DNA of 36,913 nucleotides, from positions 1 through 36,913 of the forward strand of contig JAAUUE010000004.1 of the NCBI GenBank assembly GCA_012031635.1. Direction: 5' to 3'. A program made the position numbers and the translations under genes. Positions 2 through 7,851 of the stretch are shown piece by piece (position 1 is the stretch's first letter; each line of letters starts with the position of its first letter). The notes beneath the pieces were generated by a model that saw only the letters and a program-made list of their open reading frames with translations, was not told where the DNA came from and did not search any database. The DNA is from Coleofasciculaceae cyanobacterium SM2_1_6. Its GTDB lineage: Bacteria; Cyanobacteriota; Cyanobacteriia; Cyanobacteriales; JAAUUE01.

Positions 2-592
2 GTGGTGGCGAGTACAATTCCCCACGCGATCGGGGCGGCGCTGGCGGCAAAAAAACTAGGCAAAGATCAAGTAATTGTGGCGGTGTTTGGGGATGGAGCC
101 ACCGAGGAGGGAGTTTATCATGAAAGTCTGAACTTTGCCCAGCTACACCAACTCCCCGTGATTTTTATCTGTGAAAATAACGGCTTTGCTGTCCACTCTC
201 GCCTCCACGCCCGCCAGTCTTACCAAATTATTGAGCAAGCCAAACTCTACGGTCTGCCTGTAACCGAGTGTCAAGAAGGCTACGATCTGCTGAAAGTTTA
301 TCAAACCTTTGCCGATGTTTTAGGGAAATTCCAAGCCCAACGCACACCTCAATTCCTAGAAATTCAAACCTACCGCTACCATGAGCATGTGGGACCTGGG
401 GAAGATTTTGAGGCGGGGTATCGCTCTCGTGCAGAGTTGGAGGAGTGGCGATCGCAAGACCCTCTGATCCTCAACACGGAACTGGTAGAAAAATTCCAAC
501 CCCAAATTACCGCAGAGATTGCCGCCGCCGTAGACTTTGCAGAAAACAGCCCCAATCCCGGTGTAGAAGAGCTACTGGCACATGTGATTTAG
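2..592 (+). CDS. Thiamine-diphosphate-dependent dehydrogenase E1 component, alpha subunit-like (5' truncated by window edge)
   Basis: TPP-binding region GDGATEEGVYHESLNFAQLHQLPVIFICENNGFAVHS; open at the 5' end; followed by an E1 beta ORF. Confidence 0.85.
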   Translation: MVASTIPHAIGAALAAKKLGKDQVIVAVFGDGATEEGVYHESLNFAQLHQLPVIFICENNGFAVHSRLHARQSYQIIEQAKLYGLPVTECQEGYDLLKVYQTFADVLGKFQAQRTPQFLEIQTYRYHEHVGPGEDFEAGYRSRAELEEWRSQDPLILNTELVEKFQPQITAEIAAAVDFAENSPNPGVEELLAHVI

Positions 593-4883: not shown

Positions 4884-5453
4884 TTACTCAGATATTAACT
4901 GTTTAACGTCATCCAAAGAAAGACCTAAAGATTGTGCTATCTACTCGGCAGTGAGTCCCAATTGCGCTAGGTTGGCAACTACTTCTAGTTTTGCTTTTTT
5001 CCGTACATTTTCTAAAGCATTAAGACTTTCTTCTCCAACTCGATCGGGTTCTGTTTGAACATTATCTAAATCCATTGGTTGAGGACTATTAGGGCAAAGA
5101 TTGATGCTTTCTACTCGATTATCATGAACTAGAAATGCAGAGTTGGTTATAATATTTCGCTCTATTGTTGCCCGGAAGTTTGATTTATTAAGAGTTTCCT
5201 GCAACACTTCTGAAAGCCTCTGCCATAGAGCATAAGCCTCATCCTTCACATGACCTTCAGTACAGTTATATTCCTTAGCAATCTGTGCATATTTCTGATT
5301 CTCAAAAACTCCCCGAAGAATTGACATTTGCAAGCTATCGAGATGCTGTCCTGTCTGACTAAATAAGAGATCATCCACGTATTTCAGCACTTCTTGCCAA
5401 CTCATAACTAAATTTGCATGATTTTCCGTCATCTTCCCACACTTTCCGCCCAA
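4884..5453 (-). pseudogene. N-terminal vMAP (vWA-MoxR associated protein)-type HTH domain joined to a short C-terminal tail; in-frame TAG at 4941-4943
   Basis: MSWQEVLKYVDDLLFSQTGQHLDSLQMSILRGVFENQKYAQIAKEYNCTEGHVKDEAYALWQRLSEVLQETLNKSNFRATIER is typical of the vMAP N-terminal HTH; reading continues after the stop as IAQSLGLSLDDVKQLISE*. Confidence 0.65.
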
Positions 5454-5585
5454 CGTAAATACTCTTTACAAAACTACCGACCACATCCGCCTTATCCCGA
5501 CTTTTAATTTTTAGATTTTACTGAGAAGCTAAAAATAATTCAACCCAAAAGTTCGTTATCTTAGACTATCTTAGGAGAGATATAT

Positions 5586-6581
5586 ATGAATTTGACTGGA
5601 CAGGTAAGCCTTAATTCCGAGCAGGAAAGGGAGATCAAGAGACGAGTTGAGGCTGAACGTAATAAACCTTTGATAGTTATTGTAATGGGGCAAACTGGAG
5701 TTGGTAAATCATCTCTTATCAACGCACTTTTTGGCACAAAGCTAAAAACTAATGACGTTCAGCCTGAAACTAAATTCCCTGAAAAGCACATTGAAAGAGA
5801 ATCTGATGGTTATGAATTATGGTTCTGGGATATGCCCGGTATCGGTGAATCATCTTCGGCTGACGCAGGTTACTTGCATGATTATCGCCAAAAAATTTTA
5901 GAAGCAGATGTGGCACTCTGGTTATGCCATGCAGACAGTCGCTCAGTAACATTTGATGTTGAGGCAATCCAAAAAAATCTTGCCGACTTAACAGATGGTG
6001 AACAATCAATTATTTTGAGCAAGCTCACGTTTGTACTCAGTAAGTCTGATTTGATTACTCCTGAACCTTGGATTCTTTATAAAACAAAAAATGAGGTGAT
6101 ATTTGAAACTGCGGAAGTAACAGAAAAGCTGCTTGATGCAAAAGCTACTTACTTTCGAGAAGCTCTCATTGCACCACATGGCAACAAGTTTGTATCAAGA
6201 ACATTTCATGATGGAACATTCCAAATTCGTTCAGGCAATTTGACTTTTGACAAAAATTTTGCTTACTATTCTGGCGCTATGTCTCTTCCTACACTTCGTC
6301 AACTCAAGCAAGATTACCCAAATCAATCTAGCGTGTTTACTCGTTTGTACCAAAACTCTGAAGTTGTTTACTGCTCTTCACGTTTTAGATACAACTTGTC
6401 GAAACTGATGCAGATCATTGTAGATAAAATTGGTGGTGGAGTTAGTGTAAGGTTTAGAAATTTTGTATCGAAAAGTGCTATGAACCGAGTCTTATGGAGT
6501 AAAGCACAGACATTCTCAAATTTGGTAGTATTTGATTCGGTGAAAAATGAGATTGTTTTTGATCTCTCTAATGTTAAGTAG
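5586..6581 (+). CDS. Era-like / 50S-binding-type small GTPase (stand-alone, about 331 aa)
   Basis: G1 GQTGVGKSSL, G3 DMPG, G4 LSKSDL, G5-like YCSSRFRYNLSKLMQIIVDKI. Confidence 0.85.
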   Translation: MNLTGQVSLNSEQEREIKRRVEAERNKPLIVIVMGQTGVGKSSLINALFGTKLKTNDVQPETKFPEKHIERESDGYELWFWDMPGIGESSSADAGYLHDYRQKILEADVALWLCHADSRSVTFDVEAIQKNLADLTDGEQSIILSKLTFVLSKSDLITPEPWILYKTKNEVIFETAEVTEKLLDAKATYFREALIAPHGNKFVSRTFHDGTFQIRSGNLTFDKNFAYYSGAMSLPTLRQLKQDYPNQSSVFTRLYQNSEVVYCSSRFRYNLSKLMQIIVDKIGGGVSVRFRNFVSKSAMNRVLWSKAQTFSNLVVFDSVKNEIVFDLSNVK

Positions 6582-6623
6582 ATTAAATATTGCTGGCACG
6601 ATAAAAACTTTGGAGGAAATTCA

Positions 6624-6818
6624 ATGGCAGACAAAGAAGAAATTCTACGCCGCGTGACACGAAGAATAGAGCAAGATGATGAGTTTGCTGCCAATGTAGG
6701 GGCGGCTTTGGATGCTGAAGATGATGCTTGGCTTTTTTCACTTATTCTAGATGTGATTGGGGTAATTATTGAAATTGGCTCAAGTATTTGGGATTGGGTT
6801 AAACGTCAATTTAGCTGA
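6624..6818 (+). CDS. Small protein (64 aa) with acidic N-half and hydrophobic/amphipathic C-terminal helix
   Basis: Strong Shine-Dalgarno (tttggaggaaattcaATG); WLFSLILDVIGVIIEIGSSIWDWVKRQFS; 42 bp downstream of the GTPase. Confidence 0.65.
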   Translation: MADKEEILRRVTRRIEQDDEFAANVGAALDAEDDAWLFSLILDVIGVIIEIGSSIWDWVKRQFS

Positions 6819-6863
6819 TGACTTTTGATATTCATTTCTAGAACAATTTAGGCAATAAAACCT

Positions 6864-7082
6864 ATGGCAAGAAAAGCGTTTAGTGTTACAAATACTTGGA
6901 GTAGCTACATTACCATTAAAAGCGTTGCAACAGGAAAGACATATGATGTTTCTTATGATAGCAAAATTGGTGCTCAATCTGGTGATACAGTGACAATTAT
7001 AATCGATGATAGTAGTGACAAATGGAAGACTATTATCAATGAGCGTACAGGCGATGCGGCAACCATAAATAGAGTTTCGTAA
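6864..7082 (+). CDS. Small predicted beta-rich hypothetical protein (72 aa)
   Basis: MARKAFSVTNTWSSYITIKSVATGKTYDVSYDSKIG...; same strand, 45 bp after the previous ORF. Confidence 0.55.
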   Translation: MARKAFSVTNTWSSYITIKSVATGKTYDVSYDSKIGAQSGDTVTIIIDDSSDKWKTIINERTGDAATINRVS

Positions 7083-7127
7083 AAGATAGTTCTATTCTAG
7101 ATTATTCCAGTTTCATATTCCGCCAAG

Positions 7128-7165
7128 ATCACTGTGATACCTCATTGCAGTGATGTTTTTGTTTT
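7128..7165 (+). terminator. Candidate intrinsic terminator after the GTPase/small-ORF operon
   Basis: ATCACTG...CAGTGAT stem followed by gtttttgtttt. Confidence 0.5.
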
Positions 7166-7272
7166 AAGAATAGTTGGTTTTAATAAGGCGATCGCTCTTT
7201 GATTTATTCTTTGAAAGGCGATCGCTGTTTGTAGGGATTATGAGTTTAGTGCGGGGATGGAGCGATTGTTAT

Positions 7273-7503
7273 TTAATAAACCTCATCATAACTTCCAATA
7301 TCAATTAACAAATCAGCAATCAAATCATCAACACTTCCCCTTTTTGCAGTCCCGTCTTTAAATGACTGCATCACTTCCTCAGCATTAGCCAAAATTTCAG
7401 AACGCCTACTCTCAATGCGCCGCTTACGGATTAACTCAAATAAATAATCCTGATCTTCTATAGACAAACTTTCAATAGAATCAATAATCTCTTGAAAAAT
7501 CAT
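7273..7503 (-). CDS. Antitoxin-like small protein (no recognisable adjacent toxin)
   Basis: MIFQEIIDSIESLSIEDQDYLFELIRKRRIESRRSEILANAEEVMQSFKDGTAKRGSVDDLIADL: common cyanobacterial addiction-module antitoxin pattern. Confidence 0.6.
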   Translation of the reverse strand: MIFQEIIDSIESLSIEDQDYLFELIRKRRIESRRSEILANAEEVMQSFKDGTAKRGSVDDLIADLLIDIGSYDEVY

Positions 7504-7672
7504 CTTATAACCTCTCTGGTCTTAATCAAATCAATTAATATTTCAATAAGCATTCCTCTGGTCTCCTCCTCGTCAAGGAATACTTGCATATTCAACTTCT
7601 CAAGTATAATTACATTCTGATTCAATAGCATCAAATAACTCTAGGCGATCGCTGTTTGTGGGGATTGGATAG

Positions 7673-7717
7673 GCGATCGAGGGTAATCTCCTCGGAGTAG
7701 GGGATGCTGGATTCACG
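7673..7717 (+). pseudogene. Short fragment resembling GHMP kinase motif 3
   Basis: Frame from 7673 reads AIEGNLLGVGDAGFT; the intact kinase at about 3820 reads AIGGKLLGAGDAGFM. Confidence 0.55.
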
Positions 7718-7851
7718 GGAGCGAGTTCAAAGATTCTACTTAGATGAGCTAGAGTCAAAGACTGTGGTGCAAAAGGTGATTGAATGGGAAAATAACTCTT
7801 CTGGAGAGGATTGACCTTAAACCTAATTAAATTATTAGATAGCTATTTAAT

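Follow-up and report, generated by a model that had tools for sequence, protein, structure and literature searches.

An Era/IRG-type GTPase and a small helical protein encoded as a conserved two-gene unit in several bacterial phyla

In the window, a stretch of 36,913 nucleotides from a Coleofasciculaceae cyanobacterium, a gene for a GTPase is followed by a gene for a 64-aa helical protein, and the two form a real, conserved two-gene unit. At 12 loci, the window included, a GTPase gene of the same clade (clade A) is followed by a homologous gene of 64-75 aa, with a spacing of -4 to +65 bp; counted here is every clade-A locus whose downstream DNA could be used and whose partner can be recognised. 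The unit recurs in several bacterial phyla and is unnamed so far, and no description of the pair was found in the open-access literature searched. The small protein constitutes a family worth naming, tiny and likely missed by annotation pipelines. Most likely, the GTPase gates its small partner, which would act on membranes or anchor in them, probably during conflict with phages or mobile elements. Should membrane action by the small protein indeed be controlled by the GTPase, the unit would be a compact two-gene bacterial counterpart of IRG-type cell-autonomous defence, offering a ready test of bacterial roots for the immune role of IRG-like GTPases.

Table 1 Features of the two-gene unit and its surroundings, in window coordinates unless residues are given.
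Feature	Position	Strand	Basis
Segment absent from sister genome G390, holding the pair	5000..7691	.	blastn against G390 C56
Divergent HTH gene, vMAP/NB-ARC-type HTH, truncated chimera	4941..5453	-	stop at 4941; outside the unit
Shine-Dalgarno AGGAG of the GTPase gene	5573..5577	+	sequence
GTPase gene, 331 aa	5586..6581	+	ORF; Pfam MMR_HSR1 1.3e-14, IIGP 1.5e-7
GTPase, Era/IRG-type G domain	residues ~28-165		
GTPase, family-specific alpha/beta C-terminal region	residues ~166-331		
GTPase G1, GQTGVGKSS	5688-5714	+	
GTPase switch Thr62	5769-5771	+	
GTPase G3, DMPGIGES	5829-5849	+	
GTPase WxxHADSRS	5919-5945	+	
GTPase G4, SKSD	6039-6050	+	
GTPase G5, CSS	6372-6380	+	
Shine-Dalgarno GGAGG of the 64-aa gene	6612..6616	+	sequence
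64-aa partner protein	6624..6818	+	homologues in the same position at 11 other loci; AlphaFold2 pLDDT 88
72-aa SH3-like beta protein	6864..7082	+	homologues in G401, G374, G580
Terminator-like hairpin with T-rich tail	7128..7154	+	count not above shuffles

The GTPase is complete, as an earlier note on this DNA had claimed, with all of the G1-G5 motifs intact in the sequence (Table 1). In the family, G3 takes the form D-M/L-P-G-I-G-E, and the position of Ras Gln61, directly after DMPG, is occupied by a hydrophobic residue (I86 in the window; I, V or M elsewhere). A WxxHxDxR motif is present in 13 of the 14 clade-A GTPases. The Pfam IIGP model matches residues 16-100 with 31.3 bits (curated cut-off 24), and the nearest solved relatives by sequence profile are IRGs (best 4.7e-11) and Era. 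In the AlphaFold2 model (12 sequences, mean pLDDT 84), the G domain is joined to an alpha/beta C-terminal region whose elements follow an order different from that in Era. The Foldseek hits, which include Toc34, IRG, Era, septins, LeoA and GIMAP7, reach a TM-score of at most 0.42 over the query, so the C-terminal region has no clear solved relative; several of the fold neighbours (Toc34, IRG, Era, septin, LeoA) work at membranes or in immunity. The earlier label 'Era-like' fits the predicted fold, but membership in the Era family does not hold: the match to the NCBIfam Era model reaches 36.9 bits where 237 are required, and Pfam finds no KH or RNA-binding domain among the matches listed. Among the NCBIfam matches listed, no cut-off is reached.

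The 64-aa protein is predicted by AlphaFold2 to consist of a helical hairpin (residues 4-17 and 19-30) followed by a long helix (34-63). Its gene begins 42 bp after the GTPase gene behind a strong Shine-Dalgarno sequence, and the protein is charged in its first half and hydrophobic in its second, both as described before. Across the 12 loci, the homologues show the same charged start and hydrophobic or amphipathic end. By hydrophobicity, the C-terminal helix of the window protein (Kyte-Doolittle 2.07; octanol dG -2.2) is predicted to be marginally transmembrane, and it is hydrophobic enough to span a membrane in the Nostoc, Leptolyngbyaceae and Actinoplanes members as well. Of the 14 small proteins of clade-A loci, 9 have an amphipathic helix here with an octanol dG above 0, so that the common property is a long amphipathic helix, not a single transmembrane anchor. 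A stronger conservation of the N-terminal part than of the C-terminal helix is not borne out, the difference being slight (0.25 vs 0.21). Searches for a curated family or a solved structure of the small protein gave none, and a fold search with it returned no match below E 2.7.

Between the 64-aa gene and its Spirulina homologue (L020), dN is 0.39 and dS 1.2; between Sphaerisporangium species, the small gene shows a dN of 0.16-0.19 and a dS of 0.47-0.48. Together with the homologues in the same position, these values indicate that the 64-aa ORF is very probably translated and under selection. A leave-one-out HMM, with near relatives withheld too, recovers every small-protein member at E-values from 8e-4 (worst) to 1e-16; the window protein is recovered at 2e-7 and 29.4 bits, against 4.2 for the best of 200 shuffles. 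When 59 related genomes were searched with the profile of the small protein, only two had strong matches, and both carry a clade-A GTPase with this partner. A mirror-tree test of co-evolution gave no significant correlation between GTPase and small-protein distances (Mantel p 0.14).

The window's genome holds one copy of the GTPase. A genome scan with a single sequence as the query returned nothing, and a three-member alignment as the query, with one genome per species, recovered the family: Spirulina SIO3F2 (70%), Nostoc FACHB-152 and a Leptolyngbyaceae member in the cyanobacteria; acidobacterial, spartobacterial and Ktedonobacteraceae members in MAGs; three Sphaerisporangium and one Actinoplanes on the actinobacterial side; and a cut-off copy in Chlorobiota. 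A survey of close relatives added copies in G409 and G422 and a broken one in G407. A search of 390 cyanobacterial genomes yielded three further full-length relatives at 42-45% identity. A profile survey, with few candidates scored per genome, counted at least four such genomes, the window's included. In the G-domain tree, these GTPases form a single clade (support 97/98), apart from the YeeP-type, clade-B and other Era-type GTPases, which spans Cyanobacteria, Acidobacteria, Verrucomicrobia, Chloroflexota and Actinomycetota. The verrucomicrobial member is placed with the two cyanobacteria nearest to the window, weakly (84/81), and the chloroflexotal member joins a Spirulina (89/58). This mixing of phyla within the clade indicates that the GTPase has moved horizontally. 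Phage records and viral contigs gave no match.

In the sister genome G390, only about 11 bp separate the sequences that correspond to window positions 4999 and 7692 in the blastn comparison, and the 2.7 kb between them is therefore a presence/absence segment. The absence of this segment supports the earlier description of the locus as an island. The vMAP-HTH gene reported as divergent across the promoter region is present, but as a short, truncated and decayed chimera with a very common HTH: the HTH is joined to the apparent C-terminal end of an Rpn-type protein, and recognisable coding sequence continues past the stop. A single cyanobacterial genome can contain as many as 44 copies of this HTH, so the gene is weak evidence of function. 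A candidate terminator had been placed at 7128-7165; the hairpin itself exists, but its occurrence is not above chance, with one terminator-like site found and 1.7 expected from shuffles.

The genes around the relatives' pairs vary, and some, at individual loci, are of conflict type: McrBC beside the pair in L026; genes of the AbiEii-like and BnzA-like/TerB kinds and an integrase gene in the vicinity of L025; ATPases with AAA_35 and VWA close to L021; and a vWA gene downstream in L039 and L040. In L026 (7351-8881), the pair lies directly upstream of an McrC gene preceded by an apparent C-terminal fragment of McrB, which Pfam does not match; the arrangement looks as if the pair had taken the place of the first part of an mcrBC operon. 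In the Leptolyngbyaceae locus L023, a 118-aa glycine-rich protein (7485-7841) follows the pair and weakly matches DUF697 (0.013), a domain found together with other bacterial GTPases.

In two further clade-A loci, the branch formed by L039 and L040 (genomes G409 and G422), the GTPases are 78% identical and the downstream vWA genes 77%, while the small helical protein between them, 77-79 aa in length, is only 18% identical. The divergence of the DNA sets in close to where the GTPase gene ends and ceases at the start of the vWA gene. In this branch the small helical proteins in the partner slot seem to change fast or to be exchanged, a pattern that fits a fast-changing or swapped conflict component. 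By HMM, homology of the two proteins with the 64-aa family is not detectable.

Small proteins of the same plan also occur downstream of other cyanobacterial Era-type GTPases (L012, L014, L019, L042, L043), some of them fused to a Cys-rich zinc-ribbon-like or beta-rich part, and the related GTPase of L068 apparently carries an amphipathic tail of its own. These are parallels, not proven homologues. Those after the clade-B GTPases (L012, L014, L019) score about 0-6 bits with the HMM and are not claimed as homologues; those behind the tandem GTPases of L042 and L043 score 9-13 bits against the clade-A HMM, which is suggestive only of a relationship. In L043 (810-3072) and L042, two tandem Era-type GTPase genes precede one or two small helical proteins; the loci are 98% alike over the GTPases and differ downstream, and one small protein of L043, 194 aa long, has an extra beta-rich part. 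In L014 (2414-3143), two small proteins come after a clade-B GTPase, and in one of them the helical end is preceded by an N-terminal part that is Cys-rich and zinc-ribbon-like.

Several features together point to a GTPase-controlled small partner that acts on or anchors in membranes: the two genes keep the same order and lie close together, the small protein has a hairpin and a long amphipathic helix, the G domain has relatives of immune and membrane type, and the partner changes fast in L039/L040. The unit would be a horizontally moving pair of an Era/IRG-type GTPase switch and a three-helix protein of ~65 aa. We infer that the N-terminal hairpin of the small protein binds the GTPase. While in one nucleotide state, the GTPase would keep its partner from acting; a cue from a phage or mobile element would shift this state, and the small protein would be released or delivered. 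Its ~30-residue C-terminal helix would then insert into the membrane or coat it, and growth would stop. Gating of this kind, from cue to growth stop, is proposed tentatively, at somewhat less than an even chance. The pair may even be a so far undescribed bacterial system of immunity or conflict, with direct gating by an IRG-like GTPase of a membrane-active helical protein of ~65 aa that is exchanged or diversifies rapidly among relatives, although the balance is tilted against this. Counting against a gated effector are the C-terminal helix, which is not uniformly transmembrane, the varied neighbours, the Mantel result and the lack of a match in viral contigs. The 'GTPase switch controlling a small membrane effector' of the earlier note is accordingly a reasonable reading, unproven.

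Nearly as likely as a gated effector is a non-toxic small protein serving as a regulator or anchor, such as an activator or membrane tether, with the GTPase itself remodelling membranes or sequestering in an IRG- or dynamin-like manner; taken alone, this too is a doubtful possibility. The small protein is always encoded with the GTPase, very small and mostly amphipathic without being clearly transmembrane, and all GTPase family members match the G domains of LeoA and LeoBC (best 5e-11 and 2.7e-11) and the IRGs. However, the GTPase model contains neither a dynamin stalk nor an IRG helical domain, and an anchor would hardly be expected to reach 18% identity between flanks of 77-78%.

An addiction pair of the toxin-antitoxin kind, with a small helical membrane toxin and the GTPase as antitoxin, would serve element stability instead of phage defence. 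The two-gene make-up, the patchy occurrence across phyla and the absence from the sister genome would suit such a pair, as would the broken copy in G407 (L041, 1501-1860, minus strand), a clade-A GTPase interrupted by an in-frame TAG after ~119 residues. The conserved and, by sequence, apparently active nucleotide-binding site is nevertheless unusual for an antitoxin, which leaves this explanation improbable. Less probable still is an accessory housekeeping GTPase that has a small cofactor and serves in ribosome, stress or envelope assembly: the G domain is of the Era/MMR_HSR1 type, but the absence of a KH or RNA-binding match, the variable neighbours and the very patchy occurrence (at least 4 of 390 cyanobacterial genomes) speak against it.

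The 72-aa ORF, which lies on the same strand 45 bp downstream of the 64-aa gene, is real and under purifying selection, judging from dN 0.18 and dS 1.8 against its 73% homologue. The homologues are found in G401 (73%), G374 (65%, longer) and G580 (34%), and those in G374 and G580 have signal-peptide-like N termini. No GTPase is visible beside any of the three, the G401 copy lying 335 bp from a contig end with its upstream neighbour only partly visible, and no 72-aa homologue occurs near any other clade-A GTPase pair; the 72-aa protein is therefore probably a neighbour outside the GTPase/64-aa unit. A three-gene system including this protein, with the hairpin behind it, is largely refuted and very improbable, as no GTPase is visible next to these relatives and two of them carry signal-like N termini. 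In the triplet of the earlier note, the GTPase/64-aa pair stands, conserved at 12 loci; the predicted beta protein is under selection, but is not conserved with the GTPase as a third member. Its best matches among solved structures, weak ones, are SH3 domains. The relatives with signal-peptide-like N termini are encoded in L077 (1486-1905) and L078 (1480-1845), both on the minus strand, and together with the 72-aa protein they represent a small SH3-like, possibly exported cyanobacterial family. Assignments to the colicin-Z C-terminal or ricin-lectin families were dropped as single matches that are too weak, and the 114-aa protein upstream in L020 has no similarity to the 72-aa protein.

Among known systems, the IRG or p47 GTPases (Irga6, Irgb10, GM4951) share with the clade-A GTPases the IRG-type G domain and the hydrophobic residue at the Gln61 position. 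The helical C-terminal domain of the IRGs is missing from the window GTPase, where the IIGP match ends at residue 100 and an alpha/beta region stands instead, and, unlike the IRGs, the clade-A GTPase has a separate small helical partner. Bekpen et al. 2005 (PMC1297648) had already pointed out IRG-reminiscent GTPases of cyanobacteria in which this position is hydrophobic; a partner protein is not mentioned in those passages. Kaur et al. 2020 (PMC7159879) described conflict systems of DO-GTPases with GAP1, which are likewise centred on a GTPase with variable partners, mostly in filamentous or multicellular bacteria. In those systems GAP1 lies next to the GTPase, whereas in clade A the small helical protein takes this place in 12 of 12 loci; clade A also differs in having no tandem GTPase, and no GAP1-type Pfam match was found in the proteins scanned.

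LeoABC and other bacterial dynamin-like proteins resemble the window GTPase in the G domain only, where PADLOC reports matches to LeoA (1.1e-6) and LeoBC; they possess a stalk and occur as paired dynamins, while the window GTPase, at 331 aa, has neither stalk nor dynamin neighbour. The GTPases of L082 and L083, which, judging from their annotated neighbours, we take to be the YeeP/YfjP/YkfA type of enterobacterial islands, are also stand-alone Era-type proteins, 33-36% identical over the G domain and with a D-x-PGxGE motif. They occupy a separate branch of the tree (98/97), and the genes annotated next to them are of the DUF932, YkfF/DUF905, antirestriction and Ag43 kinds. In conclusion, the pair would belong with the GTPase-centred systems of conflict type, its conflict role being unproven, and the pairing of such a GTPase with this small protein appears to be new in itself.
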